Source: Streptomyces lincolnensis
Lineage (GTDB): Bacteria > Actinomycetota > Actinomycetes > Streptomycetales > Streptomycetaceae
Assembly: GCF_021173675.1 (NCBI RefSeq)
Contig: NZ_JAIHON010000001.1
Span: 1-64,000, forward strand
Length of the DNA: 64,000 bases
Direction of reading: 5' to 3'
In this document: positions 8,048 to 33,182 of the stretch, piece by piece
Numbering within the stretch: the first letter of the stretch is position 1
How the letters are laid out: each line of letters opens with the position of its first letter
Program-made: the position numbers and the translations under genes
Notes under the pieces: generated by a model
Database searches by the model: none
Told to the model about the DNA's origin: nothing
The model's input: the letters and a program-made list of their open reading frames with translations, nothing else

Positions 8048-8513
8048 CAGGTCCTCCTTGTCCGCTGCGACTCATTGCACAGGCAGGCGGCGTCCGGTCG
8101 CATCGGAGGATGCGCGGAAAGCCCTGAGTCAAATGACGTAGCGTGCGAAGACCAGAGTCGAGTGCGGTCCGGCCGGAAGAACACGGCACTGATCAGCCAT
8201 GACGTGCGGTTCCGACGGCGTCAGCGCTATGTTCACCGGTCCGAGTACCACCCCGCCCGGCCGTGCCCGTCCCCGCACGGAGTCCGCCCGCGGGTCTGCC
8301 CGGTCGCGCCTTCCGTGCGGGGTCGCATTCCGGCGAACGGCGTACTCGGCTCAGCAGAGAACGTATGCAAAACTGTCAGATCAGCCTCGCCCTCCCAGCC
8401 ACCTACCAGCACCGGAGCTGCGCACGGATCGTGCCGGGCGTCCGGCATATTCAGCGCGAGGTTCACGAGTATCGAGAGTGCCGAGGGTGCGATATGCGGC
8501 AAGGAGGCCTCGT
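8048..8513. other. 466-bp divergent intergenic region
   Basis: This stretch separates the ferredoxin operon (minus) from the kinase gene (plus) and must hold both promoters. An open frame runs through it into the kinase gene, but its codons lack the usual bias and it gives no recognisable domain. I see no long palindrome or RNA gene. AAGGAGG at 8501-8507 is the ribosome site of the kinase. Confidence 0.5.
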
Positions 8514-10719: not shown

Positions 10720-11592
10720 CTACGACAAGTGCCCCAGCTCGCGCGACGCGGCGGTCACCGTGGTGTGCAACTCGGCGGCCACTTCAGCGAGGTGGTCGGG
10801 TGTTCCGGCACTCTCCGGGAGCGCCACGGACAGTGCGAGCGGCAGCGGATCATTGGCGGCGAACACGGGAGCCGCGACGGAGATGACGCCTGCAATGACA
10901 GCGCTATGGGTCACGGCGTGCCCGCGCTCACGGATATCGGCCCGGATGGCTGCGATGCGCTCCGCAGGCCATTCGCCCTCCCTGCCCCGCACCTCCTGTC
11001 CCAGCACCTCGTTGGTGAGGGTCTCGGGCAAGTGGGACAGATACACCCGGCCGACGGAGGAGGTGAGCAGAGGGAGCGTGGCGCCGACCCGCACCGTGAG
11101 TGGCAGCGGGCGGGTCCCATACGCCCAGCTCACCACGATCGGACCGCGGTCTCCCCACACCGCGACGTTCACGGAGTGGCCCGTGCGATCCCTCAGCCGC
11201 ATCGCGTGGCCGGCGGCGACCGCCACCTCGTTCGTACGCCGCAGCGCCTCCGCTCCGAGGCGACGCATGGAGGGCCCGAAGTCGTAGAGACCGGTCGCGG
11301 AGTCCTGGAAGGTCAGCCCGATGCGCCCAAGGCTGACGAGATAACGGTGCACCTTGCTCGGCTGCATCCCGCTCGCCTGAGCGATCGCCGACAGGCTCAG
11401 AGCACCTCCGCCCTCCTCAAGCGCCAGTAGCACCCGCATCGCGGTTTCAACCGACTGGATCCCCTGGCGTCCGAGCCCGTCGGACACGGCGCGCTGCGCG
11501 TCCTGCCCGTTCTCGGCTGGATCGGCGACCGCCACGGAGCTCTCCTCTGCATGCCGCCGGTGCATGAACGTGTTCAGCCTATCGGAGCCCAC
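10720..11592 (-). CDS. IclR family transcriptional regulator
   Basis: A 290-aa regulator with an N-terminal winged helix (SVETAMRVLLALEEGGG, then LSAIAQASGMQPSKVHRYL, about residues 46-85) and a C-terminal effector domain (PLLTSSVGRVYLSHL and a final VSVAAPVFA motif). The GTG at 11592 has AGGAGGG at good distance. An internal ATG at 11565 is the alternative. It diverges from the decarboxylase/maleylacetate reductase/hydroxyquinol dioxygenase operon, and an inverted repeat lies between them. It is probably the pathway-specific regulator responding to an aromatic acid or a ring-cleavage product. Confidence 0.92.
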   Translation of the reverse strand: MGSDRLNTFMHRRHAEESSVAVADPAENGQDAQRAVSDGLGRQGIQSVETAMRVLLALEEGGGALSLSAIAQASGMQPSKVHRYLVSLGRIGLTFQDSATGLYDFGPSMRRLGAEALRRTNEVAVAAGHAMRLRDRTGHSVNVAVWGDRGPIVVSWAYGTRPLPLTVRVGATLPLLTSSVGRVYLSHLPETLTNEVLGQEVRGREGEWPAERIAAIRADIRERGHAVTHSAVIAGVISVAAPVFAANDPLPLALSVALPESAGTPDHLAEVAAELHTTVTAASRELGHLS

Positions 11593-20966: not shown

Positions 20967-21177
20967 CGAGGTGCTCGGAGGCCCACCGTGGTGGTGGCCG
21001 TCCCCTGGCCGCCGACCTGGACAGCGGTGACCTGGGCAAACCACACACTGCCGATCACCTCGAGGCTGCCATGGCCGAACAGCTGGTCGCAAGGTGGGAC
21101 ACCACTTCCTTGTTCTCCGTGGGCAACGGTGGGCCTCCGGTTGGTTACTACGAGAAGATGTAGCAGGAGGCACTCTC

Positions 21178-21606
21178 GTGTCGGATACGGACAGCAACGT
21201 GGCAGCCGAGGACCCCGTCGAGCAGGACTGTTCGATCCGCGATGTACTTGACCGGGTCGGCGACAAATGGAGCGCCCTGATCGTGCTCAGGCTCAGCGAC
21301 GGCCCTCTACGGTTCAACGAACTGCACCGCGAGGTCGACGGGATCAGCCAACGAATGCTGACCCTGATCCTGCGCGCACTGGAGCGCGACGGCCTGGTCA
21401 GCCGCACCGTGTACCGGACGATGCCGCCGCGCGTCGACTACGAACTCACCGATTTGGGCCGCACGCTGCTCACGCCGATCGCCGCGCTGCGCGAATGGGC
21501 CATGGCACACCGCGACGACATTCGACGCGCTCGCGCCCGCCACGACCACACGACCGGCGACCCCGATGCGAAGCCTGCACCCACATCCCTGACGCCAGGC
21601 GCTTGA
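21178..21606 (+). CDS. HxlR family transcriptional regulator
   Basis: A 142-aa winged-helix protein. The hallmark Cys near the N terminus (CSIRDVLDRVGDKWS) is followed by LRLSDGPLRFNELHR and ISQRMLTLILRALERDGLV. The single Cys is the usual thiol sensor of quinones and electrophiles in this family. The GTG at 21178 with GCAGGAGG upstream is preferred to an ATG 84 bases earlier. It stands alone among redox enzymes and could control the old yellow enzyme through the TTACT/AGTAA operators, which resemble HxlR-type sites. That assignment is a guess. Confidence 0.88.
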   Translation: MSDTDSNVAAEDPVEQDCSIRDVLDRVGDKWSALIVLRLSDGPLRFNELHREVDGISQRMLTLILRALERDGLVSRTVYRTMPPRVDYELTDLGRTLLTPIAALREWAMAHRDDIRRARARHDHTTGDPDAKPAPTSLTPGA

Positions 21607-21850
21607 TCAGGACGCCAAGCGTGGACCTCTCGCCCTTCGCAGCGCCTCCGCGGTGGTTGATTCCGCAGCCATCGGCCCGGCACACCGCTGACACGGTGCG
21701 GGCGCCGTTGCCTGCGACGTCGCCTCGGCGGGGTTGCATGGCTCTGCGCAGTAGAGCACCCAGGCACGGCGTAGTCGATGGCGAGAAGATCGGACGCTAG
21801 GCCAGCGCCAGACCACCTCGCGTTGCGCGAGAGCGGCCTATTCTTCTGCT

Positions 21851-22645
21851 ATGAAGAAGTCCGAGGTCAAGTCATCGGTCGGCAGTGGGCCGGCGCCGCA
21901 GTACCCGATCGAGTCGGTGGACAACGCGCTTCGGGTGCTGCTCATGCTCGGTGAGCGGAACGAGCTCAAGCTCACCGACGTCGCTCACCACCTAGGGGTC
22001 GCGAGCTCCACCGCACACCGCCTGCTCGCGATGTTGATGTACCGCGGCTTCATCAGGCAGGCCGGGCGAGGCAAGGCTTACGTACCGGGAACAGCACTCA
22101 CCGGTGTCGCCTTTTCGATTCTGCAGCGCTTCGATGTCCGGCAGGCCCTGCGCCCCTTCCTGGAGCGGCTGAACGCCGAACTGCGGGAGACCGTGCACCT
22201 TGGAGTGCTGGACGGGACGACAGTCCGGTTCGTGGACGCGCTGGAGAGTCCGCGTGCCGTGCGTGTCGCATCCCGCCTCGGTCAGTCGATGCCGGCGCAC
22301 TGCACCTCGACCGGTAAGGCTCTCCTCGCGCAGTTGTCCGGCGATGAGCTGCGACGGCGTTACCCGGACGAGGAGCTTCAGCAGTTGACGCCGAACTCGG
22401 TTGCCACTCGGGCGGAGTTGGAGAAGGAGGTCGAAATGGTCCGCCGACTCGGCTACGCCACGAGCTCCGAGGAAAGCGAGGAGGGCGTGGGCTCCGTCGC
22501 CGTTGCGCTGTCTGCCCAACGAGCCCCCATGCAGGCCGCCTTCAACGTCTCCGTGCCGATCAGCCGGATGAATCACGCCGACCAGCGTCGGATCAGTGCG
22601 GTGCTGCGTGAGGTCGCCGAGGAGGCTGCCGAGGTACTGCACTGA
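21851..22645 (+). CDS. IclR family transcriptional regulator
   Basis: A 264-aa regulator with a winged-helix head (SVDNALRVLLMLGERNE, LTDVAHHLGVASSTAHRLL, residues 20-70) and an IclR effector domain (ETVHLGVLDG, PAHCTSTGKALLAQL, EEGVGSVAVAL). No Shine-Dalgarno is seen. A TATTCT box ends six bases before the ATG, which suggests a leaderless transcript. Regulators of this family control phthalate-type dioxygenase operons in other actinobacteria, so it may act on the gene groups at 23.6 and 27.8 kb. Confidence 0.92.
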   Translation: MKKSEVKSSVGSGPAPQYPIESVDNALRVLLMLGERNELKLTDVAHHLGVASSTAHRLLAMLMYRGFIRQAGRGKAYVPGTALTGVAFSILQRFDVRQALRPFLERLNAELRETVHLGVLDGTTVRFVDALESPRAVRVASRLGQSMPAHCTSTGKALLAQLSGDELRRRYPDEELQQLTPNSVATRAELEKEVEMVRRLGYATSSEESEEGVGSVAVALSAQRAPMQAAFNVSVPISRMNHADQRRISAVLREVAEEAAEVLH

Positions 22646-23330
22646 GCATACGTCGCCTTCTGGCACGGCCTGCGTTCCACCTCGACCTCGTCGCCTGCAC
22701 CCGGCGCGGTCCGAAAGCGCACACTCACGCGCGATGACGGTGTGGGATCCGGGCCTCCGGCTGCCCGGCGGCGGAAGGACGAAGCAGCGCCGAACCCGCA
22801 CCGGAGGCCCCCTACTACGGTCTGCTGCGGCACTCGGCCGTCCGGCCCGCCGCGTCCGCCGTCTGTGAATGACCGGCATTCGGCAGCCGGCGAACGGCTG
22901 GCTTCGGCTAGCTTCTCCGACTCATCGACTGGTCGGCACGGTCACTCACCAAGCGGGGGTCTACCCTACTGCCGACCGGTGCGTCCCTGGACCTGCCGAC
23001 CGGTCCCGCCTCCACCGCGGCCCTGCTGGCCGCTTTCACCACGGGCTGCTCGCGGTACCCGTTCACCGTCGGCCGCAACTTCGTCAAGGGAGGCGGTGAG
23101 CCGCGTCCGGGCAGGTCAACGACAGTTCTGACAAGCCCGGTCCGGGCGAAAGAATCCGCGGCATGGGACCAGCACGTTCCAGGGTGGTTAGGCATTGGTT
23201 TGCGGCATCGCTCAATCTCGGCTGCCGTCCCCGCCGACCGCACGAGTGCCTGGGGACCGTGGCAGTGCCGGTACCAGTACGGACGATGGGCATGGAAGCC
23301 TCCTTGCCCTGCAATGAAGGGCAAGCCATT

Positions 23331-23358
23331 CCATACAGTAGATCCATTGTCTGTATGG
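23331..23358. promoter_or_regulatory. Inverted repeat CCATACAG-N12-CTGTATGG
   Basis: Perfect 8-base arms at 23331-23338 and 23351-23358 in an AT-richer stretch, about 290 bp before the VOC gene. This could be an operator for the upstream IclR regulator or a promoter element. No second copy was noticed in the window. Confidence 0.5.
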
Positions 23359-23607
23359 CGGAAGGACGGCTCGCGAATCAAGCTGCCTGCCAAGCTGCAT
23401 GCCAGCCTGCAGAAGGTGACGCCGGGGACCTCCGAGGCTAGCGCTCCGGCGCGCCCCCTCAGACGGACCGGGATAACTGATGCCAGTTCACTCATGACGA
23501 CCGGCTCTGCGATTGCCGACCGCTGCGGATGATTCCTCTTCGGTGGCTCGACCTGTCGGGTCTGCAGTCTTGTGACAGGGGCTTCCCAGTGCTACCTTCA
23601 GAGAGGT

Positions 23608-23624
23608 ATTCTGCAAGACAGAAT
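23608..23624. promoter_or_regulatory. Operator ATTCTG-N5-CAGAAT (copy 1)
   Basis: A perfect inverted repeat ATTCTG/CAGAAT with a 5-base spacer, ending 21 bases before the VOC start. A near-identical site, ATTCTG-N5-CAGAGA, precedes the dioxygenase operon at 27774-27790. A site this close to the start fits repression or a very short leader. Confidence 0.65.
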
Positions 23625-23645
23625 TTCCGGCAAGGGAGGCGGGAG

Positions 23646-24233
23646 ATGCAACGCGGTATCCACCACATGGGTTTCGCGACGTTCGACTACGAGCGCTGTG
23701 TCGACTTCTACACACGTGTGCTCGGCTTCGAGATCGCATGGCAGGAACTGCAGCAGGCGGAGGACGGGACGGTCACCATGCGCCACGTCTTCTTCGACGT
23801 CGGTGGCGGCAGCTACATGGCCTTCATGGCCCCGACGCCTGAGTCCGGCGCTCCGGCGAGTTGGCCGGCCGACTTGGACAAGGCGCTGGGACTCCGCCCG
23901 TACACCTACCACTTCTCCCTCCGAGTCGACAGCGAGCAGGAGCTGCAGGCCTGGAGGGACCGCCTGGTCGAGCACGGAGTCAAGGCGAGCGCGGTGTTCA
24001 ACCACGGGTGGTGCAGGTCGGTGTACTTCACCGACCCCGACGGGCTCCAGTTGGAGTTCTGCTACAACACGCGGGTCCTGAACGAGGACGACAAGATCCT
24101 CAAGCCTCGCGAACAGCCGTTCATCGACGACCTGCGGCGCGACCCGCAAGCAGCCCGCGAGAGCTCCGAGGCCATGGGCATCCCCCTCGAGGCGTTCCTG
24201 GGTGGGCAGGAGCTCGAAGAGGCCCGCAGCTGA
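23646..24233 (+). CDS. VOC family extradiol dioxygenase-like protein
   Basis: A 195-aa single-pair VOC protein. Candidate metal ligands are His6/His7 (GIHHMGFATFD), the His in TYHFSLRVDS (about residue 104) and the Glu in LQLEFCYN (about residue 152). This is the H-H-E set of type I extradiol dioxygenases and glyoxalases. AAGGGAGG lies 6 bases before the ATG at 23646. It leads a group of genes (SDR, hydrolase, SRPBCC) that share an operator with the dioxygenase operon, so ring cleavage of a catechol is plausible. Small VOC enzymes vary widely in function. Confidence 0.75.
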   Translation: MQRGIHHMGFATFDYERCVDFYTRVLGFEIAWQELQQAEDGTVTMRHVFFDVGGGSYMAFMAPTPESGAPASWPADLDKALGLRPYTYHFSLRVDSEQELQAWRDRLVEHGVKASAVFNHGWCRSVYFTDPDGLQLEFCYNTRVLNEDDKILKPREQPFIDDLRRDPQAARESSEAMGIPLEAFLGGQELEEARS

Positions 24234-24394
24234 GGCATTGCGTGGCCGCAGCTGAAGAAGGGGCGACAAGGACGTGCCGACCGGCCTCGCCCGGCCGCAA
24301 CGGAGAAGGTAGCCGCGGCGGTGATCAGCGCGGTGTGCCCCGAGAGCTGGTCCCGGCGTCCTCGTCCGACAGTTCGGCGAGGCCGCATCCGCCC

Positions 24395-24442
24395 CCGGCC
24401 TTCGTCCCCCCTGCGGTGCACCGCAGGGGGGACGAAGGCCGG
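24395..24442. terminator. Perfect 48-bp palindrome between VOC and SDR genes
   Basis: Bases 24395-24418 are exactly complementary to 24419-24442 (24-base arms, no spacer; centre GGTG/CACC). As RNA it would form a very stable hairpin with a C6/G6 run in the stem. There is no T-tract, as is usual for hairpin terminators in high-GC actinobacteria. It would end the VOC transcript or act as an attenuator, and lies 30 bp before the SDR start. Confidence 0.6.
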
Positions 24443-24472
24443 CAACTCATGTGAGATGGAATCGGAGACGAA

Positions 24473-25180
24473 ATGAGTTCGCTGAAGGGTGAGACGGTCC
24501 TCGTGATCGGAGGGAGCTCGGGTCTCGGGCTTGCGGTCGCAGCGACAGCTCTCGAGGACGGCGCGGAGGTCACGATCGCCGGCCGCTCCGAGGACCGGCT
24601 CCGCGAGGCGAGGGCCGTAATCGGTGACGGGGTGCGGACTGCCGCTGTCGACGCCGTCGACGAGGAACAAGTGGCGGGACTGTTCGATGGTTTCGACACG
24701 GTCGACCACGTTTTCGTCACCGTCGGAGTGGTCGGCGGGGGCACCCTCTTCGAGGCGGACACCGCGACGCATCGTCCGCGTCTGGATGCGCGGGTCTGGG
24801 CGGCGGCGCACGCGGCCAGGTACGGGGCGCCGAAGATGCTCCGAGGTGGATCGATCACCTTCTGCTCGGGAGCGGCCGGTGTCCGACCGGGCAAGACCAC
24901 GAATCCGCTCGCCGCGGCCTCGGCGGGAGCGGTGGAGTCGATGACCCGCACCCTGGCGGTGCAGCTCGCGCCCGTCCGCGTCAACACCGTCGTCCCCGGC
25001 ATCGTCGAGACCCCTCTGCTCACAGCATCGGCGGGTGACCTGGAGGCGATCGCCGAGCGCCTGCCCGTGGGGCGCGTCGGCCGAGCTGAGGACATCGCCC
25101 AGGCGGTGCGGTTCTTCATGACCAACGGATACGTCACGGGCCAGACGCTGATCGTCGACGGGGGCGGCGTCCTCGTCTAG
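24473..25180 (+). CDS. SDR-fold oxidoreductase with non-canonical active site
   Basis: A 235-aa short-chain dehydrogenase fold. GGSSGLGLAVA near residue 13 binds NAD(P), and VRVNTVVPGIVETP near residue 164 and the C-terminal GQTLIVDGG are typical. The catalytic Tyr-x3-Lys is missing: the equivalent region reads KTTNPLAAASAGAVESM. The NNAG motif is replaced by VTVGVVGGG. A divergent SDR subgroup shares these losses, so the protein may be a reductase with another mechanism or a binding protein. It lies downstream of a long palindrome and 64 bp before the hydrolase gene. Confidence 0.85.
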   Translation: MSSLKGETVLVIGGSSGLGLAVAATALEDGAEVTIAGRSEDRLREARAVIGDGVRTAAVDAVDEEQVAGLFDGFDTVDHVFVTVGVVGGGTLFEADTATHRPRLDARVWAAAHAARYGAPKMLRGGSITFCSGAAGVRPGKTTNPLAAASAGAVESMTRTLAVQLAPVRVNTVVPGIVETPLLTASAGDLEAIAERLPVGRVGRAEDIAQAVRFFMTNGYVTGQTLIVDGGGVLV

Positions 25181-25244
25181 GGCCCCCGCGGCTGGGTGAG
25201 CGCCGCGCCAGCAGGACGAAGACAAGAAACGACGAAGGACGGAA

Positions 25245-26429
25245 ATGACCGAGGTCACACGTGAGCCGGTGGCGATCGACTCGCCCACCGCACCGAGGAC
25301 AGCATTCGGGGCGTTCCCACATGAGGGCGTCTACCACACGCTGAAGGGGAGCAGGCCCGACGTCGCCTTCATCATCTGCCACCACGTCGCCAACTTCAGC
25401 GACCACTACCTCGGACCGCTGCTGGCAGAGCAGGGCTTCGGCGTCCTGGGCTGGCCGACCCGATACAAGACCGATCCGGCCTACTTCCAGTTGGAGAACG
25501 CGCTGATCGACATCGGCGTCGGGATCCAGTGGCTGCGTGAGGTCGCCGGAGTGAAGACGGTCGTGATGGTGGGCAACTCCGGTGGTGGTTCGCTGATGGC
25601 CACCTACCAGGCACAGGCCACCGACCCCAGCACGATCAAGGTCGCAGATCAGTTCAAGGCCGCGGCGGACGCGGGCGCCAGCTCGGCGGCCGGCCAGCTG
25701 TCCACCTCGATGGCCGTGCATGTGTCGGTCGAGTCGGAACTGCGGCAGCTGCCTCCGGCCGACCTGTACATCTCGCTCAACGCCCATCAGGGTCGTCCGG
25801 ACGTCCTGACGACGTGGATGGACCCCTCGGTCATCGACGAGAACGATCTCTTCGCGACCGACCCCGAGCTGGACATGTTCAACCCGCGCAACGGTCCGCC
25901 GTACTCGCCGGAGTTCGTGGTCCGCTACCGGCAGGCTCAGCGGGAACGCAGCAACCGCATCAGCAGGTGGGCGCGTCAGGAACTGGCCATCCTCAACGAA
26001 CACGGCGTCACCGACCGCATCTTCACGATCAACAGGCTTTGGGCGGACCTGCGCTTCCTCGACCTGTCCATCGACCCCTCCACGCGGGAGACCGGCTGCT
26101 ACTTGGGTGACCCCCGTACCGCCAACTACGGTGCTCATAGCCTCGTGCCCTTCGTGACCCTCCGAGGCTGGCTCTCGATGTGGAGCCTGGAGGACGCGCA
26201 GTCCCGCGGCACCGATCAGCTCAAGAACATCAAGGTGCCCTCACTCGTGATCCAGGCAACTGGCGACACAGGGGTGTTCCCCTCCGACGCACACGCCATC
26301 CACGACGGACTGGGCGCCGCGGACAAGACGCTCGAGTTCCTCCCCGGCGGACACTTCTTCGAGGGCCCCGGCGAACGCGAAGCGCCCACCAAACTCATCG
26401 TCGAATGGACCAGCAGCCGCACGCACTGA
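25245..26429 (+). CDS. Alpha/beta hydrolase (esterase-like)
   Basis: A 394-aa alpha/beta-hydrolase. The nucleophile Ser112 lies in GNSGGGS (G-x-S-x-G). A long lid insertion with helical segments (about residues 130-285) follows. The acidic residue is probably in QATGDTGVFPSDA, and the catalytic His in FLPGGHFFEGPG near residue 370. No signal peptide is seen, so it is cytosolic. In the context of an aromatic dioxygenase operon it could hydrolyse an aromatic ester or a ring-cleavage product. Families of this size include phthalate-ester hydrolases, but the substrate cannot be read from sequence. Confidence 0.82.
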   Translation: MTEVTREPVAIDSPTAPRTAFGAFPHEGVYHTLKGSRPDVAFIICHHVANFSDHYLGPLLAEQGFGVLGWPTRYKTDPAYFQLENALIDIGVGIQWLREVAGVKTVVMVGNSGGGSLMATYQAQATDPSTIKVADQFKAAADAGASSAAGQLSTSMAVHVSVESELRQLPPADLYISLNAHQGRPDVLTTWMDPSVIDENDLFATDPELDMFNPRNGPPYSPEFVVRYRQAQRERSNRISRWARQELAILNEHGVTDRIFTINRLWADLRFLDLSIDPSTRETGCYLGDPRTANYGAHSLVPFVTLRGWLSMWSLEDAQSRGTDQLKNIKVPSLVIQATGDTGVFPSDAHAIHDGLGAADKTLEFLPGGHFFEGPGEREAPTKLIVEWTSSRTH

Positions 26430-26591
26430 CGCCGCGCGCTGAAGGATCACCGACTCACCATGCCGTGCGGACAGGTCGACACACCGGGGCCCCAGCGCGT
26501 ACGCGATGCTCGAAGTCTGGAGCGCGGCCATCAGATACCTCCCTGTCGTTCAGACCGGAGGCATTCAACACAGCATTTCAAGGAGTGACCG

Positions 26592-27026
26592 ATGCCGCGC
26601 CCTTACGCAAGTGGAGTTGTCGCCGCGCCCGCCTACCGGGTATGGGCCCTTCTCAGAGAGTTCAACGGCCTGCCGGGCTACATGCCCGGCCTCGACCGGA
26701 GTGAGCTCGTCGAAGGGCAGGAGGGGCAGGTCGGTGCTGTGCGCAGGCTGACGCTCGCCGCGGGCGGGGACACGTTCGAGGAAAGGCTCCTGGCCCTCGA
26801 CGACGCCCAACGCACTTGCACCTACGCCTTTCGAGGCGCCAACCCGTTCGGCGTCCGCCGGTATGTCTGCACGGTCCGGGTATCCGAGATCACCGACACC
26901 GGCGATGCCTACGTGGAGTGGTCAGCTGAGTTCGATGCCGACGAGGCCCAGGAGGAGGAGCTGACCCGCTCCTTCGCAGGTAGCTACGCCGGTGGAATCG
27001 AAGGCGTGCGCAAGGTGCTTGCTTAA
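26592..27026 (+). CDS. SRPBCC (Bet v 1-like / polyketide cyclase) protein
   Basis: A 144-aa START-like fold. The N-terminal strand and helix (SGVVAAPAYRVWALLREFNGLPGYMPGL), central strands, and a long C-terminal helix (TRSFAGSYAGGIEGVRKVLA) form a hydrophobic pocket that can bind small aromatic or lipid molecules. AAGGAG lies before the ATG. It closes the small gene group led by the VOC gene, and a 780-bp gap follows. It may be a ligand carrier or a cyclase-like enzyme. No catalytic residues are assigned. Confidence 0.8.
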   Translation: MPRPYASGVVAAPAYRVWALLREFNGLPGYMPGLDRSELVEGQEGQVGAVRRLTLAAGGDTFEERLLALDDAQRTCTYAFRGANPFGVRRYVCTVRVSEITDTGDAYVEWSAEFDADEAQEEELTRSFAGSYAGGIEGVRKVLA

Positions 27027-27344
27027 GCCGCGTATCGAAGGTGTGTCTGGAGCGGTGAGGGGGCCCGCACGAACTGCCGCCATCGCCGGCGATGGCGGAC
27101 ATGTCGCAGGCCCGCGCGTTGTCCCCCGGAACGGGCCCAGGGCGAGGTCCGGAGTCGCAGGGCTCTCCTGCGGGAGGCGGCTGCGGCCGGCCGGAGGTTG
27201 ACGGCGCCCGTGACCATGCCGGGATGGGCACGTCGAGATGGGTGACACGTGCGTGTAGCGGTTGTCGTGCACTCCCCGCTCTCGTGAACGTGGGGTACGG
27301 GATCGGGCGCGGTCATGTTTCCGGTGACCACCCTGTCATGGCTG

Positions 27345-27379
27345 GTAGCCCCTGGTCTTCCCTCGAAGCCAGGGGCTAC
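27345..27379 (+). terminator. Rho-independent-type hairpin
   Basis: GTAGCCCCTGG (27345-27355) pairs perfectly with CCAGGGGCTAC (27369-27379), and a smaller CTTC/GAAG pair lies inside the loop. It stands about 320 bp after the SRPBCC stop and may terminate either strand. Confidence 0.65.
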
Positions 27380-27773
27380 TGGCATTGCGGGTCGCCATTT
27401 CTCCTTGTCGGCCCTGCTGCACGCGGCGAGCTGACGTCGGTCAAGGTTTCGCTGCGGAGCCGGGTGCTGCGAGATATGCGGAACCGCTCGCTGCCGCGAT
27501 GCGGCCGACTCAGGACGGGGCTGACACGTCCTGCGATATGCCCCGCACTCTCGACGCCAGACCGGCCGGGGTTTACGCGCGTTACGCGCCGACTTCCCGG
27601 CCCGCGACGAACGTCGCGGCGACGTGTGCCACTCGGCCGCCCAGGTGCTCCGCGCCGCACTCCGGCCTCCTGCCATCTTCGGCAACAGCGGCTTGATCAC
27701 TGCTCGGGCTCGTCACTGACCGGACGACGCTTGACACGGCGACGCAGTCATGTTTTTTGGTAAGCAGACATTA

Positions 27774-27790
27774 ATTCTGGTTAGCAGAGA
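27774..27790. promoter_or_regulatory. Operator ATTCTG-N5-CAGAGA (copy 2) of the dioxygenase operon
   Basis: It matches the 23608-23624 site in ATTCTG and CAGA with the same 5-base spacer, and ends 19 bases before the alpha-subunit ATG. Two related TAAGCAGA/TTAGCAGA direct repeats lie at about 27761-27789. AAGGAG at 27797-27802 is the ribosome site. Confidence 0.6.
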
Positions 27791-27809: not shown

Positions 27810-29201
27810 ATGACCGATCTCGACCTCGTGCTGGGCGATGTGCGGCGGGGGATGATCCCCGCGCACATCTACAACGACGAGGAGATCTTCCGTCTCGAGC
27901 GCGAGCGGTTGTTCAGCCGGGCATGGCTGTTCGTCGGGCACGAGTCGGAGATCCCCCAGGCAGGCGACTACGTGGTGAGGCGGGTGCTCGATGACTCGTT
28001 CATCCTGTCTCGGGGGGAGGACGGTCAAGTGCGGGCGCTGTTCAACATGTGCCTGCACCGGGGTATGCAGGTCTGCCGGGCGGAGATGGGCAACGCCTCG
28101 CACTTCCGCTGCCCGTACCACGGCTGGTCCTACCGCAACGACGGGCGCATCGTCGGGCTGCCTTTCCACAAGGACGCCTACGGCGGCGAGGCCGGTTTCC
28201 GGCGTAAGGGGCAGATCCTGCTCCCTGCGCCGTCCATGGACACCTACAACGGCCTGATCTTCCTCAGTCTGGATCCCGACGCCCCGCCGCTGCGTGAGTA
28301 CTTGGGCGACTTCGCCTTCTACCTCGACTACTACACGCGCCAGTCGGCCAGCGGGATCGAGCTGCGCGGTCCGCAGCGCTGGCGGGTGAAGACGAACTGG
28401 AAGATCGGCGCCGAGAACTTCGCCGGCGACATGTACCACACCCCGCAGACGCACACCTCCGTCGTGGAGATCGGGCTGTTCCGTGAGCCCAAGGCGGAGA
28501 AGCGCAAGGACGGCAACACCTACTGGGCCGGCAATGGCGGGGGCACCACGTACAAGCTGCCTCCGGGGACGCTGGAGGAGAAGCTGCGCTACGTCGGCTA
28601 CCCCGACGTGATGATCGAAAGGATGAAGGAGCAGTGGTCGCATGACCAACTCGACGTCATTGGCCGGGACGGGTTCATGATCTCGGCCGCGTCGGTCTTC
28701 CCGAACATGAGCTTCGTGCACAACTGGCCCCGGGTCGAGGACTCCGACGATGTGCTCCCGTTCATCTCGCTGCGCACGTGGCAACCGGTCGGCCCTGACG
28801 AGACCGAGGTCGTGTCCTGGTTCGCGGTCGACGCGGAGGCGCCGGAGGAGTTCAAGGCGCTGTCCTACAAGGCGTACCTGATGTGCTTCGGATCGACCGG
28901 CATGTTCGAGCAGGACGATGTCGAGAACTGGGTCTCGTTGACCAACACCGCGGCCGGGGCCATGGCCCGCAGGCTGCTCCTCAACAGCCGTATGGGCCTG
29001 CTGGAGGACGGTACCGAGGTCGTTCCGCCGCTGACGCGCGAACAGTACTCGGGTCCGGGTGAAGCCCACGTCGGATACGGCGAGTACAACCAGCGCCACC
29101 TGCTGAGCCGATGGGCGGACCATCTGGAACGCCCGGTGGACAAGGTTTCTCAGGTCGAGGTGTCCGGTGTCCCGGCGGACCACAAGGAGGTGCGAGCGTG
29201 A
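27810..29201 (+). CDS. Aromatic ring-hydroxylating dioxygenase, alpha (Rieske) subunit
   Basis: A 463-aa oxygenase large subunit. Rieske [2Fe-2S] ligands are Cys81, His83, Cys101 and His104 (NMCLH, CPYHGW). The mononuclear iron site is Asp207/His210/His215 region (ENFAGDMYHTPQTH) with an acidic ligand in FEQDDVENW near residue 369. It adds O2 to an aromatic ring to give a cis-dihydrodiol. The gene order alpha-beta-(small ORF)-dehydrogenase-[3Fe-4S] ferredoxin-reductase-class II aldolase decarboxylase equals that of actinobacterial phthalate 3,4-dioxygenase clusters. Phthalate or a similar aromatic acid is thus the leading substrate guess; cumate-like acids are an alternative. AAGGAG precedes the ATG. 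Confidence 0.92.
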   Translation: MTDLDLVLGDVRRGMIPAHIYNDEEIFRLERERLFSRAWLFVGHESEIPQAGDYVVRRVLDDSFILSRGEDGQVRALFNMCLHRGMQVCRAEMGNASHFRCPYHGWSYRNDGRIVGLPFHKDAYGGEAGFRRKGQILLPAPSMDTYNGLIFLSLDPDAPPLREYLGDFAFYLDYYTRQSASGIELRGPQRWRVKTNWKIGAENFAGDMYHTPQTHTSVVEIGLFREPKAEKRKDGNTYWAGNGGGTTYKLPPGTLEEKLRYVGYPDVMIERMKEQWSHDQLDVIGRDGFMISAASVFPNMSFVHNWPRVEDSDDVLPFISLRTWQPVGPDETEVVSWFAVDAEAPEEFKALSYKAYLMCFGSTGMFEQDDVENWVSLTNTAAGAMARRLLLNSRMGLLEDGTEVVPPLTREQYSGPGEAHVGYGEYNQRHLLSRWADHLERPVDKVSQVEVSGVPADHKEVRA

Positions 29202-29845
29202 GTGCACAGGCACAGCCGACGGCCCCTGAGCCGGCGAAGGAGAAGGTTGCTGCCGCACCCACCGGAAACGGCGGTCCCTACTCTGCGGAATCCCGGCTGG
29301 GCGGGCACGCGCCACGTACCCAGCGGACTGGTCGGAGCCTGGCGTTCGACGACCCACGTCACCTGCAGGCCCACCACTGGATGGTGGAGGAGGCCTACAT
29401 CCTCGACGCGCAGAACTACGAGGACTGGCTGGACCTGCTCACCGACGACATCCACTACATCATGCCGGTCCGGGTCACCACCGCCCTCACAGCGGGGTTC
29501 GACTCGGCCCCGCACATGGCGCACTTCGACGAGAACAAGTACTCGCTGTCACGACGTGTGGCCCGGTTCCTGACGGAGCACGCCTGGACCGAGGACCCGC
29601 CCTCGCGACTACGTCACCACGTCACCAACGTCCGCACGTTCGCCACGCCGAACCCGGACGAGCTGATCGTGGACACAGCGGTCCTGCTCTACCGAAGCCG
29701 CGGTGACATCCGGGAAGCCTCGATCATCTCGGCAGGCCGCGAGGACCTGCTGCGCCGCGTCGGAGACGGCTGGCAGCTGGCCCGTCGCACCATCCTGGTG
29801 GATGACGCCGTGCTGCGGACCCAGAACCTGGCGGTGTTCCTGTGA
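29198..29845 (+). CDS. Aromatic ring-hydroxylating dioxygenase, beta subunit
   Basis: A 215-aa small subunit of the NTF2-like fold (AHHWMVEEAYILDAQNYEDWLDLLTDDIHYIMPVR; C-terminal RTILVDDAVLRTQNLAVFL). It has a structural role in the alpha3beta3 hexamer. The start is GTG at 29198, overlapping the alpha TGA, with AAGGAGG 6 bases upstream. The first 50 residues are low-complexity Ala/Pro/Glu and longer than usual for this subunit. The stop overlaps the next gene by four bases, so translation of the set is coupled. Confidence 0.92.
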   Translation: MSAQAQPTAPEPAKEKVAAAPTGNGGPYSAESRLGGHAPRTQRTGRSLAFDDPRHLQAHHWMVEEAYILDAQNYEDWLDLLTDDIHYIMPVRVTTALTAGFDSAPHMAHFDENKYSLSRRVARFLTEHAWTEDPPSRLRHHVTNVRTFATPNPDELIVDTAVLLYRSRGDIREASIISAGREDLLRRVGDGWQLARRTILVDDAVLRTQNLAVFL

Positions 29846-30159
29846 CCGAGCAGGGGCGACTGCAGTGGGACGGCGAAGCCGAGGACGCCGCCGCCGCGGG
29901 TCGGGCCGCGGCCGAGCTGCGCGAGCTCAAGGCCCACCAGACCGGAGAGGCCATCGCGCTGGGCAACGAGTTCAGCGAGATCCGGGTGTCCCGGGTCGAG
30001 ACCCGAAACGGTGCGCGGCTGTTGGTCGAGGCGCCGAAGTCCGGTCAGTGGGTGGCGCTGTGCCCACTCGAGGTGGAGTCACTGACCTGGCAGAACGCGG
30101 AAACGTTCTCCGCGATGATCGGTCACCCGTTCGGCCCGTTGTTCGAGGAGGAGACGTGA
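29842..30159 (+). CDS. Small conserved-looking protein of the dioxygenase operon
   Basis: A 105-aa acidic protein that I cannot assign to a fold. An Ala/Glu-rich helix (residues 10-35) is followed by a strand-rich part (EFSEIRVSRVETRNGARLLVEA; SGQWVALCPLEVESLTW). There is no cysteine cluster, membrane segment or Rossmann motif; it has one Cys. It is coupled on both sides (GTGA at 29842; its TGA overlaps the next GTG). The tight coupling between beta subunit and dehydrogenase argues for a role tied to the oxygenase, such as assembly, activation or a product-binding accessory. Similar small ORFs are sometimes labelled dihydrodiol dehydrogenase, which its size and sequence do not support. Confidence 0.8.
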   Translation: MTEQGRLQWDGEAEDAAAAGRAAAELRELKAHQTGEAIALGNEFSEIRVSRVETRNGARLLVEAPKSGQWVALCPLEVESLTWQNAETFSAMIGHPFGPLFEEET

Positions 30160-30941
30160 GTGACTGGTTGACCGGCCGGCGTGCTCTCGTCGTGGGAGCG
30201 GGATCCGGGATCGGCCGCGCGGTGGTCGACGCTTTCCGCTCGGAAGGCGCGCAGGTAGCCGTCCTCGAACGCGACGAGGTCAAATCCGCCAAGCTCTCCG
30301 CCGAGATACCGGGCCTGCCGGTGGTCGTCGGCGATGCCACCACCCGCCAGGCCAACGAGCGGGCTGTTGCGACCGCGGTGGAGGCGTTCGGCGGTCTGGA
30401 CATCCTGGTGAACTGTGTCGGTGTCTTCGACTTCTACCGCGGCATCGGCGACCTCGACGAGGACAGGATCGACGACGCGTTCGACGAGATCTTCCGGGTC
30501 AACGTCAAGAGCCACCTGCACTCGGTGAAGGCCGCTCTGCCTGCCCTGCGGGAGAGCCGAGGGACCATCATCCTCACCGAATCGACCTCGGCGTACTACC
30601 CGGGCCGGGGCGGGGTGCTCTACGTCTCGACCAAGTTCGCCGTCCGCGGGCTCGTCACCGCGCTCGCGCACGAGCTGGCACCCGACATCCGGGTCAACGG
30701 GGTCGCGCCCGGCGGAACCCTCAACACCGACCTGCGCGGGCTGGGCAGCCTCGGGCTGGATCAGCGGCGTCTGAACGACAGCCCTGACCGGGAAACGGAG
30801 TTGGCCGCCCGTGTCCCCTTGCAGGTCGCGCTGTCAGGCGAGGACCACGCGTGGAGCTACGTGTTTCTCGCCTCCGGGCGTTCCCGCGGGATCACCGGCG
30901 GGGTCGTGCATCCGGACGGCGGCATCGGAGCCAAGGCGTAA
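30156..30941 (+). CDS. cis-Dihydrodiol dehydrogenase (SDR family)
   Basis: A 261-aa SDR with GAGSGIGRAVVDAF (residues 11-24), NCVGVFDF in the place of NNAG, a Ser in LTESTSAYYPG, catalytic YVSTK near residue 156, and VRVNGVAPGG. It rearomatises the dioxygenase product to a catechol with NAD+. The GTG start at 30156 overlaps the previous stop. Its place directly after the oxygenase genes and its similarity to BphB-type dehydrogenases make the role likely. Confidence 0.88.
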   Translation: MSDWLTGRRALVVGAGSGIGRAVVDAFRSEGAQVAVLERDEVKSAKLSAEIPGLPVVVGDATTRQANERAVATAVEAFGGLDILVNCVGVFDFYRGIGDLDEDRIDDAFDEIFRVNVKSHLHSVKAALPALRESRGTIILTESTSAYYPGRGGVLYVSTKFAVRGLVTALAHELAPDIRVNGVAPGGTLNTDLRGLGSLGLDQRRLNDSPDRETELAARVPLQVALSGEDHAWSYVFLASGRSRGITGGVVHPDGGIGAKA

Positions 30942-30985: not shown

Positions 30986-31183
30986 ATGGTGATCGTAAAA
31001 GCCGATCTTGAGGCGTGCCAGGGCTACGCGAACTGCGTGGTCGGCGCGGACGATGTATTCGACCTCGACGACGACGGGGTAGTCGTGCTCCGCCGGACGA
31101 CGATCGAGGACTCCGAACGCACCAGAGTCGAGGAGGCAGCCCGCAGCTGCCCGGTCTCCGCGCTGGTGATTGAGGACGACTGA
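30986..31183 (+). CDS. [3Fe-4S]-type ferredoxin
   Basis: A 65-aa single-cluster ferredoxin. Cys11, Cys17 (CQGYANC) and Cys55 (SCPVSAL) remain. The middle Cys of a [4Fe-4S] set is replaced, giving the C-x5-C...C-P pattern of 3Fe-4S ferredoxins that serve P450s and phthalate-type dioxygenases. GAGGAAGAG precedes the ATG. Its TGA overlaps the reductase ATG by one base (TGATG). It shuttles electrons from the reductase to the Rieske alpha subunit. Confidence 0.93.
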   Translation: MVIVKADLEACQGYANCVVGADDVFDLDDDGVVVLRRTTIEDSERTRVEEAARSCPVSALVIEDD

Positions 31184-32424
31184 TGGCACGCACAGTGATC
31201 GTCGGCGCCTCCGTCGGCGGTGTCCGGACCGCCCAGGCCCTGCGGGCGGCGGGCTACGACGGCGAGATCGTCCTGATCGGCGACGAGGATGTCCCGCCCT
31301 ACGACAAGCCGCCGCTGTCCAAGGCACTTCTGGCGGGAACAACCACCGCGGACCATATTGGTCTGTTGCGCGCGGACGCCGCGGCCGAGGCACGCGTCGA
31401 GCTCGCTCTGGGCAACGCGGCAACAGGCGTCGACCGAGAACACCGGCGGGTGCTCCTCACCGACGGCACCAGCCAGTTCTACGACGATCTCGTGATCGCC
31501 ACCGGGGCCCGGGCCAGGCCGTCACCCTGGGGGACACCACCCGGCGTGCACGTGCTGCGGTCTCTGGCCGACGCCGAGGCGCTCGGCGTCGCCCTGAGGG
31601 CCGGCGGACCGTTGGTGGTCATCGGGGCCGGGTTCATCGGCGCCGAGGTCGCGGCCACCGCGCTGGGCATCGGCCTCGACAACGTGACGGTCGTCGACCC
31701 GGTGCCGGTGCCGCTGTCCCGGGTGCTCAACCCCGAAGTCGCCGCTGTGTTCGGCGCGTTGCACGCCGCGCGCGGAGTACACACCCGCTTCGGTGTGGGT
31801 GTCACCGACGTCAAAGAAACCGGGGACGGACTGGAGGTGTACCTCGACGACGGCTCCGTGCTCCCTGCCGCCACGGTCGTTGTGGGAATCGGGGCCGTCC
31901 CGAACGACAACTGGCTTGCCGGCAGTGGGATTCCGACCGACGACGGCGTGCTCTGCGACAGCCACTGCCGCTCCATCGAGGACCCCCACATCTGGGCGGT
32001 CGGGGACGTTGCCAGGTGGCGGCACCCTCGCTACGGGCGCAGCGTCCGGCTGGAGCACTGGACGAACGCGGTCGAGCAGGCCGTCTGCGTGGCCCACAAC
32101 ATCACGCACCCGGAAGCCCTCCGCGACCACACCCCGGTCGAGTACGTCTGGAGCGACCAGTACGACTGGAAGGTCCAGCTGGTGGGGCGGACGGGTGGCG
32201 ACGCGCACGTCCGGGTGGACGGTGCCGACCCCGAGCGTTCCTTCGCCGTGCTCTACGCGGACGAGTCCGACCGGTTCATCGGCGCCCTCACAGCGAACTG
32301 GCCGAAGGCGCTGATCACCTGCCGTCGGCTGCTCAACAGGGCCGATGCGGTGCCCAGCTCGCTGCCTGAGGTGCGCGCGCTCGTGGACGACGTGCGGCCA
32401 GCCGCCCGGATGGAGGCTCCATGA
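31183..32424 (+). CDS. Ferredoxin reductase component (FAD/NAD-binding)
   Basis: A 413-aa reductase like that at 5912-7147. FAD site VIVGASVGGVRTAQAL at the N terminus (the third Gly of GxGxxG is replaced by Ser), YDKPPLSKALL near residue 45, NAD site IGAGFIGAEVAATAL near residue 150, and WAVGDVARW near residue 270. It oxidises NADH and reduces the 3Fe-4S ferredoxin. It is coupled to both neighbours (TGATG upstream, ATGA downstream). Confidence 0.92.
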   Translation: MARTVIVGASVGGVRTAQALRAAGYDGEIVLIGDEDVPPYDKPPLSKALLAGTTTADHIGLLRADAAAEARVELALGNAATGVDREHRRVLLTDGTSQFYDDLVIATGARARPSPWGTPPGVHVLRSLADAEALGVALRAGGPLVVIGAGFIGAEVAATALGIGLDNVTVVDPVPVPLSRVLNPEVAAVFGALHAARGVHTRFGVGVTDVKETGDGLEVYLDDGSVLPAATVVVGIGAVPNDNWLAGSGIPTDDGVLCDSHCRSIEDPHIWAVGDVARWRHPRYGRSVRLEHWTNAVEQAVCVAHNITHPEALRDHTPVEYVWSDQYDWKVQLVGRTGGDAHVRVDGADPERSFAVLYADESDRFIGALTANWPKALITCRRLLNRADAVPSSLPEVRALVDDVRPAARMEAP

Positions 32425-33182
32425 GTATGCTCACACCGGCATCGACCGAGCTCCGGTCCCGGCGGGGGCTGGTCGCACATGCCTGCCGGGTCATGGCCGG
32501 CCGTGGCCTGGCCGACGGCATCCTCGGCCACATCAGCCTGAGAATCGATGACCGCAGGCTGCTCATCCGCTGTCGAGGCCCCCAGGAGCGCGGGCTCGGC
32601 TACACAACGCCCGACGACGTCCGGCTGGTCGACTTCGACGGGACCGAAGGAGCCCCGGGCGAACTGAACGGTTACTCCCCGCCGAACGAACTGCCGCTGC
32701 ATACCGAACTCCTCCGGCAGCGCCCGGAGATCGACGCGGTCCTGCACGCCCACCCACCCGATGTCGTCGCCGCAGACCTCGCCGGCATCAGCATCCGGCC
32801 CATCGTCGGGGCGTTCGACATCCCCGGCACCCGCCTCGCCGCCGGCGGTGTTCCGGTGCATCCGCGCGGGGTCCTGATCCGAAACCGTCGCCTGGCCGAT
32901 GAGATGGTCCGCTCGATGGCGGATCGTCCGGTCGTGGTGCTTCGCGCTCACGGCGTGACCAGTGCCGCGGCCACCGTCGAGCAGGCAGTGCTCCAGGCGA
33001 TCAGCGTCGACGGCCTGGCCCGGCTCTCCCTGCGAATCGTCTCCGCCGGCGGGACCCTCCTCGACCTGCCCGACACCGACATGGCCGAACTGCCTGACCT
33101 CGGTGCGGGCTTCAACACCGACACCGCCTGGCGGCACGAACTCGCTCGGCTTTGTGGCGTCGTTGCTTCAAAACCACTCTGA
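32421..33182 (+). CDS. Class II aldolase/adducin family protein, probable aromatic acid decarboxylase
   Basis: A 253-aa metal-dependent class II aldolase fold. The zinc ligands are the His pair in VLHAHPPDVVAADL (about residues 110-112) and the His in LRAHGVTS near residue 176. NELPLHTELLR carries the conserved acidic and His residues. In phthalate clusters the equivalent protein removes the 2-carboxylate from 3,4-dihydroxyphthalate to give protocatechuate; a CmtD-like decarboxylase is similar. ATGA overlap with the reductase. It is the last gene of the operon. Confidence 0.86.
   Translation: MSMLTPASTELRSRRGLVAHACRVMAGRGLADGILGHISLRIDDRRLLIRCRGPQERGLGYTTPDDVRLVDFDGTEGAPGELNGYSPPNELPLHTELLRQRPEIDAVLHAHPPDVVAADLAGISIRPIVGAFDIPGTRLAAGGVPVHPRGVLIRNRRLADEMVRSMADRPVVVLRAHGVTSAAATVEQAVLQAISVDGLARLSLRIVSAGGTLLDLPDTDMAELPDLGAGFNTDTAWRHELARLCGVVASKPL

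Follow-up and report, generated by a model that had tools for sequence, protein, structure and literature searches.

A candidate tandem operator for an IclR-family regulator of phthalate catabolism, shared with a VOC gene, in Streptomyces lincolnensis

In the stretch of Streptomyces lincolnensis DNA analyzed here (the window: 64 kb at the start of contig NZ_JAIHON010000001.1, 0.6% of the 10.5-Mb genome), a ring-hydroxylating dioxygenase operon and a gene for a VOC-superfamily protein are each preceded by a near-palindrome of the same kind. This raises the question of whether the two promoters share an operator and, if so, which regulator reads it. The original prediction placed the near-palindromes at 23608-23624 and 27774-27790, positions that our analysis reproduced, and proposed that one IclR-family regulator, encoded at 21851-22645, controls both gene groups. 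We find that the shared operator is very probably real and that its regulator is most likely this IclR protein.

The VOC site, ATTCTGcaagaCAGAAT, is a perfect 6-5-6 palindrome ending 21 nucleotides (nt) ahead of the VOC ATG (23646), while the dioxygenase site, ATTCTGgttagCAGAGA, ends 19 nt ahead of the ATG of the alpha subunit (27810); both are given on the plus strand. The exact pattern ATTCTG-N5-CAGA occurs at only these two places in the window, with the 23608 site matching on both strands, and at five in the genome. The three further places (C5:211665, C23:474162 and C81:178076) lie just 5′ of a methyltransferase-like gene, as judged by eye, or within reading frames. As a bare pattern the motif is not enriched: allowing one mismatch, the genome contains 23/20 matches versus 24/21 for the reversed control, and 8 of 100 shuffles equalled the match count of the window. 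We dropped these statistics as proof because the reversed control is equally frequent, and the evidence beyond chance is therefore comparative.

For this comparison, we searched 392 genomes of the genus, evenly drawn from a larger group, with the alpha subunit and took seven close dioxygenase orthologs (72-87% identity, from six other Streptomyces genomes) together with their flanks. Seven plasmid clusters, picked from 87 records, were added; they belong to Rhodococcus, Arthrobacter/Pseudarthrobacter, Citricoccus, Kocuria and Microbacterium, have alpha subunits 80-87% identical, and carry largely the same genes plus an IclR gene. All seven close-ortholog promoters show two palindromes of the TCT-N7-AGA type, and the tandem spacing is 20 nt in 7/7 Streptomyces promoters and five of the seven plasmid promoters (12/12 of those later used for training). 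At the dioxygenase promoter of the window, the downstream copy likewise has an upstream partner at 27754-27770 on the plus strand, its centre 20 nt away (halves TTTTTGGTAAGCAGACA at 27754 and ATTCTGGTTAGCAGAGA at 27774). The original prediction had missed this partner, as well as a weak one at the VOC promoter and a third site over the IclR start codon; its suggestion that the motif be sought in related clusters was borne out, as the operator recurs from Streptomyces to Arthrobacter and Rhodococcus plasmids.

A tandem pattern (TCT-N7-AGA twice, 20 nt apart) was run genome-wide on the window's own genome and the six relatives. Without mismatches it occurs at seven places in the six genomes: five dioxygenase promoters, one place in the cluster of genome G198 and one near the second dioxygenase cluster of genome G187, which is partly degenerate and whose dioxygenase copy has two stops inside its match. 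With at most one mismatch, we counted 16 places versus 5 for the reversed control. The tandem is absent at nine more distant dioxygenase loci (L016-L024, 37-43% identity).

From 24 sites of the 12 foreign promoters we built a symmetrised 17-bp operator matrix, excluding the sites of the window and of the nearest named relative found, Streptomyces justiciae 3R004. Training sites were chosen by the analyst, with pair spacing left free at 18-22 nt and a very small preference for 20. The background sample, 0.8 of the genome's 10.5 Mb, consisted of 40 pieces of 20 kb each. The matrix ranked the window's sites as 27774 (21.6), 21843 (20.3) and 23608 (19.2), followed by 8344 (15.4) and 27754 (13.7), while no background position scored at least 19 (maximum 17.6). 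With 300 column-permuted matrices, sites scoring at least 19 in the window averaged 0.02 and never numbered three. Training on Streptomyces or on plasmid sites only returned the same top three, and the 800 kb of background contained no position that equalled or exceeded any of the three. A degenerate 15-mer with at most one mismatch matches 34 places in the whole genome, and the window's three sites are the top three of these by matrix score.

Scored as a pair, the dioxygenase copies reach 35.4, a value equalled by none of 798,560 background positions. The strong VOC palindrome has a weak partner, AGTGCTACCTTCAGAGA, 20 nt upstream at 23588-23604 (plus strand), over the presumed -10 region; its score of -0.5 is attained by 0.19% of background positions, and the VOC pair score of 18.6 by none of 798,560 at 20-nt spacing. 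Tandem palindromes 20 nt apart, within the expected 18-22 nt, thus stand in the dioxygenase core promoter and, weakly, at the VOC promoter. IclR-family proteins are reported on tandem sites with 18-22 nt between centres (PMC8222616).

The operon behind the stronger pair encodes a phthalate-type dioxygenase, as the original prediction had guessed, and more precisely one of the phthalate 3,4 type, judging from matches to PDB entry 9jp5 and to PhtC. All its genes lie on the plus strand. The PhtAa-like alpha subunit (27810-29201; Rieske and Ring_hydroxyl_A domains) matches 9jp5 chain A best (E 5.7e-245), with naphthalene dioxygenase next (E 1.7e-114). It is followed by the beta subunit (29198-29845; PF00866), a small conserved operon protein (29842-30159) that has matches in seven other Streptomyces clusters and no family in the profile search, and an SDR-type cis-dihydrodiol dehydrogenase in the role of PhtB (30156-30941; NF004849 385 bits, cut-off 330). 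A ferredoxin (30986-31183) was assigned by position and reading frame, a ferredoxin being annotated at the same place in the plasmid clusters. The ferredoxin reductase (31183-32424) has a match in five of seven other Streptomyces clusters, and a reductase is annotated in the plasmid clusters. The last gene encodes the 3,4-dihydroxyphthalate decarboxylase PhtC (32421-33182; NF053537 394 bits, cut-off 200). On these matches, the pathway is that of phthalate 3,4-dioxygenase.

The candidate regulator (21851-22645, plus strand), a presumed repressor, belongs to the IclR family by PF09339 (55 bits, cut-off 22) and PF01614 (152 bits, cut-off 24). In each of the six other Streptomyces genomes its best match (53-88% identity) is encoded no more than about 7 kb from the dioxygenase, and an ortholog is present in 7/7 plasmid clusters (48-55%). 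Altogether an ortholog accompanies 13 of 14 clusters, one of them (L026) counted through a genome search for the protein, whereas IclR paralogs elsewhere in those genomes are, among the matches listed, at most 48% identical. In genome G253 the IclR gene (88%) and the dioxygenase point away from each other, with the tandem in the space between. By eye, the helix-turn-helix segment L[G/S]VA[S/T]STAHR is nearly identical among the orthologs; eight paralogs read LGVARSTAHR (five), IGVARSTAHR (one) and LDVADSTAHR (two) at this segment. Sites, tandem spacing, conservation and the company of the IclR gene are computed results.

The second-best site of the window, TTCTGctATGAAGAA at 21843-21859 (plus strand), covers the start codon of the IclR gene itself and is a candidate autoregulatory operator. 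S. justiciae and five of the six other Streptomyces genomes share a site in this position with the window, and two plasmid clusters, L050 and L054, have one at the IclR start or close to it. A weaker operator-like site, GCTCTGCGCAGTAGAGC (21741-21757, no strand assigned; score 11.8), lies 93 nt upstream of the IclR gene and is also present in S. justiciae. Outside the training set, operons for branched-chain-type ABC transporters that adjoin the phthalate cluster begin with tandem operators in two Streptomyces genomes (L030, and L028, where the start of the first gene is provisional), and in four plasmids (L049, L051, L052 and L053) an operator stands ahead of the ABC-transporter operon. Hydrolase genes have operators too in L050 and L054, as does PhtC in L050, and a weaker one (15.1) stands at the L048 hydrolase. 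In the pca region of the window's own genome (C5:50000-66000; protocatechuate dioxygenase at C5:58156) there is no operator-like site (best score 5.7), which leaves the lower pathway of that region outside the control of this operator.

We therefore read the near-palindromes, with a probability of roughly 0.83, as operators of the IclR protein, which would be an autoregulated repressor of phthalate catabolism with the VOC gene in its regulon. Two IclR dimers (one tetramer) would bind the tandem copies (27754-27770 and 27774-27790) at their 20-nt spacing along one face of the helix and, covering the -10 region and start site, would block RNA polymerase. A compound of the phthalate pathway, most likely phthalate, would release the protein; the phtAaAbAcAdBC operon of Rhodococcus PAE-6 is reported to be induced by phthalate (PMC10434107). 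The site over the regulator's own start codon would provide feedback. Since the VOC promoter has one strong copy and a degenerate partner, it would probably be induced together with the dioxygenase operon. Binding, repression, the identity of the inducer and VOC co-expression are what we infer from sequence. For the two promoters, the proposal of a single IclR regulator is well supported by comparison, through site conservation and the IclR ortholog beside the dioxygenase; its extension to the SDR, hydrolase and SRPBCC genes behind the VOC gene is not.

Several points weigh against this account, the first of which concerns the mode of control. Repression was preferred over activation from the position of the sites, and IclR proteins can also activate: the aromatic regulators of this family include activators, among them HbaR1 and VanR1 of Rhodococcus opacus, reported as such (PMC9582017, PMC8222616). 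Moreover, scanning with a promoter consensus turned up no standard promoter ahead of the VOC gene or the dioxygenase operon. By eye, the VOC promoter reads TTGTGA-17-TACCTT, with a TG one base before the second hexamer (23570-23598), and the upstream dioxygenase operator begins 17 nt after TTGACA (27731-27736). The distance from the -35 box to the centre of the upstream operator is 29-34 nt in 10 of the 12 relatives and 31 in the window, which fits an overlap of this operator with the -10 region. The tandem overlaps the presumed -10 region and start site in 10/12 relatives and at the window's dioxygenase promoter, a position suited to repression, and we consider it unlikely that the IclR protein is an activator using the same sites.

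The second group of points concerns the VOC promoter. The dioxygenase and IclR sites could be real operators and the VOC site a chance or relic match, with the VOC group expressed independently. Deep phylogenetic support is limited to the former two. At E 1e-40, none of the other 391 of the 392 genus genomes has a VOC relative, and the VOC site is therefore footprinted only between two near-identical loci, those of the window and of S. justiciae (L035), which has the same genes at 95-99% protein identity (ferredoxin left out) and 93-97% DNA identity. In S. justiciae the site scores lower, at 16.2, below the background maximum, with a partner at -2.3, and the partner in the window is itself weak (-0.5). 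Once spacings of 19-21 nt are allowed, one background pair (21.7, at 21 nt) beats the VOC pair. Tandem pairs as imperfect as the VOC pair are about as common genome-wide as their reversed control: the pattern with at most two mismatches that catches the VOC pair finds 30 places against 25. Only two of the 30 have one mismatch, one being the dioxygenase promoter, and three fall in the window (27756, 23590 and 23330). Furthermore, VOC, hydrolase and SRPBCC genes are absent from the stretches of the 14 other clusters that were compared. On the other hand, the strong VOC palindrome is the third-best site of the window, is reached by no position in 800 kb, stands at operator distance from the start codon, and ranks third by matrix score among the 34 genome places, although two others lie within 0.1 of it. 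A fortuitous or relic VOC site accordingly seems improbable to us.

The remaining points concern the regulator and the spread of its operator. No IclR match turned up in the 9 kb of the second G187 cluster (L032), the IclR start codon of G198 is not covered by a site, and the dioxygenase tandem is absent in two of the seven plasmid clusters, L050 and L054, the latter having a single site. In sequence, TTCTG-N5-CAGAA here stands against TTYCRY-W3-RYGRAA for the IclR group-1 operators (PMC8222616), with T for C at one symmetric position; compared by eye with the published consensus GKTYCRYW3-4RYGRAMC, the geometry fits and that one symmetric position differs. OphR of Rhodococcus sp. DK17 is likewise an IclR-family regulator of a phthalate operon, but the site listed for it, CGCGTACGCG, is unrelated in sequence (PMC8222616; compared by site). 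That another regulator binds the sites, such as the HxlR-type protein encoded at 21094-21606 or one encoded elsewhere, is very improbable: the HxlR-type gene adjoins the IclR gene and L050 has an HxlR-like match (48%), and relatives have IclR paralogs with similar recognition helices, one of them (L104) with a comparable site 175 nt ahead of its start, but the HxlR gene is matched in only one of 14 other clusters, whereas the motif comes with an IclR ortholog in all genomes examined and in 13 of the 14 clusters, and a copy of it lies over the start codon of the IclR gene.

Returning to the repressor account, we examined the genes that it would bring in at the VOC promoter, all on the plus strand. 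The VOC-superfamily gene (23646-24233; PF00903) is followed by genes for an SDR oxidoreductase (24473-25180; PF13561), an alpha/beta hydrolase (25245-26429; GNSGGG nucleophile motif by eye, PF12146 and PF00561 below their cut-offs) and a polyketide cyclase-like SRPBCC protein (26592-27026; PF10604). Between the VOC and SDR genes lies a perfect 48-bp palindrome with 24-nt arms (24395-24442, no strand assigned; fold of 24386-24460, -58 kcal/mol), retained in S. justiciae with each arm one base shorter. It may end the VOC mRNA as a terminator, attenuate it or stabilise it. The SDR start follows after only 30 nt, which leaves little room for a promoter ahead of SDR. A second, terminator-like hairpin (27345-27379, no strand assigned; 11-nt arms, 13-nt loop; 27331-27400, -43.7 kcal/mol) lies between the SRPBCC gene and the dioxygenase operon.

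The S. justiciae locus carries all four genes. In the 14 other phthalate clusters, compared over stretches of 9-17.5 kb at a threshold of E 1e-8, VOC, hydrolase and SRPBCC have no match, and SDR has matches of about 30% or less only. The original prediction had made the four genes part of one pathway; the operator makes this plausible for the VOC gene, whereas SDR, hydrolase and SRPBCC, which lie past the 48-bp palindrome and are likewise missing or only distantly matched in the 14 clusters, are only possible members. A search of named genomes with the hydrolase gave 13 loci, and in the stretches covered around them only S. justiciae has a close dioxygenase (best elsewhere 35%, L039). Besides S. 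justiciae, hydrolase and VOC homologs are adjacent in three of the 12 loci (an actinomycete bin, Pusillimonas caeni and Caulobacter sp. AP07), and from this side-by-side placement the two proteins probably act together. The Pusillimonas pair is flanked by an FAD monooxygenase and an SRPBCC-like gene; the monooxygenase beside the hydrolase and VOC homologs hints at an undescribed aromatic-degradation module. Plasmid VOC relatives are all less than 60% identical (81 records), and in the one plasmid VOC region inspected the neighboring hydrolase has no match to that of the window. We offer only tentatively the idea that the four genes form a recruited side route, making or salvaging phthalate or a relative of it, that the S. 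justiciae lineage brought under the control of the phthalate repressor.

Further operator-like sequences and clusters were observed in passing. About 280 nt upstream of the VOC gene, another tandem pair at 23328-23364 (20 nt apart, scores 11.4 and 10.9) also reads as an inverted repeat, CCATACAG-N12-CTGTATGG, with no obvious gene for it. In S. justiciae, two symmetric bases of this repeat change together (CCATGCAG...CTGCATGA), one end base is also changed, and the matrix scores fall to 6.9 and 8.7. The fourth-best site, ACTCGGCTCAGCAGAGA at 8344-8360, is reached by one background position in 800 kb and is identical in S. justiciae. A ferredoxin (by eye)-VOC-reductase group on the minus strand and a histidine kinase gene on the plus strand flank it, and it is a possible further regulon member. 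On the minus strand, a second IclR-family gene (10720-11592) adjoins amidohydrolase, iron alcohol dehydrogenase and intradiol dioxygenase genes, in what looks like a further aromatic catabolic cluster.

Elsewhere in the same genome, the locus L133 (C1:448000-462000) has tandem IclR-type sites 21 nt apart; its neighbors, by eye, are allantoinase-like, IclR regulator and malate synthase-like genes, and it is probably an AllR-like regulon. Among the relatives, G187 has a mismatch-free tandem (C13:24437-24469) at a distance of 22 kb from its partly degenerate second phthalate cluster. L050 is the Rhodococcus pyridinivorans plasmid pNAPH; its dioxygenase alpha gene, at which the operator is missing, has an IS256-family transposase gene about 130 nt upstream, and the plasmid's PhtC, IclR and hydrolase genes retain operators. 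In genome G233 (L026:1300-1400), an operator copy lies behind PhtC, over what seems to be the beginning of an IclR reading frame (MQKSQIQSAR before a stop), and the intact IclR ortholog starts about 3.6 kb beyond.

The tandem of TTCTG-N5-CAGAA-like copies 20 nt apart is thus an operator candidate for the phthalate IclR regulator across actinobacteria, including conjugative catabolic plasmids. It could be used to find more plasticiser-breakdown genes through their promoters, with the VOC gene as a first candidate, and offers a potential phthalate-sensor promoter. The operator is not described in the accessible parts of the literature searched, including PMC8222616, PMC9582017 and PMC10434107, although the supplementary tables of PMC8222616 may list it; a term search of the accessible part of PMC10333787 returned no mention of a regulator.

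Compared with known systems, the operator resembles the IclR group-1 operators (WTT-11-AAW; PMC8222616) in being a 17-bp palindrome with an odd centre and tandem copies 18-22 nt apart, mostly at -20 to -80 from the gene start, and, presumably, in controlling the regulator's own gene as well. HutR of Corynebacterium resistens (GTCTGWWATWCCAGAC; PMC8222616) has similar TCTG...CAGA half-sites but a spacer of six, and serves histidine utilisation. With the phtAaAbAcAdBC pathway of Arthrobacter, Rhodococcus and other actinobacteria, the window shares the alpha and beta subunits, the small protein, ferredoxin, reductase, the PhtC-like class II aldolase gene, the IclR gene and the tandem operator. 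It differs in the dehydrogenase, an SDR in the window versus an aldo/keto reductase in the plasmid clusters, which have no match to the window SDR, and in the VOC gene that sits, with SDR, hydrolase and SRPBCC, between the IclR gene and the dioxygenase. The mechanism proposed is hence a familiar one, an autoregulated IclR repressor that acts on a phthalate regulon by way of tandem operators; the novelty lies in the operator sequence, as far as the literature was searched, and in the VOC gene as a candidate member.

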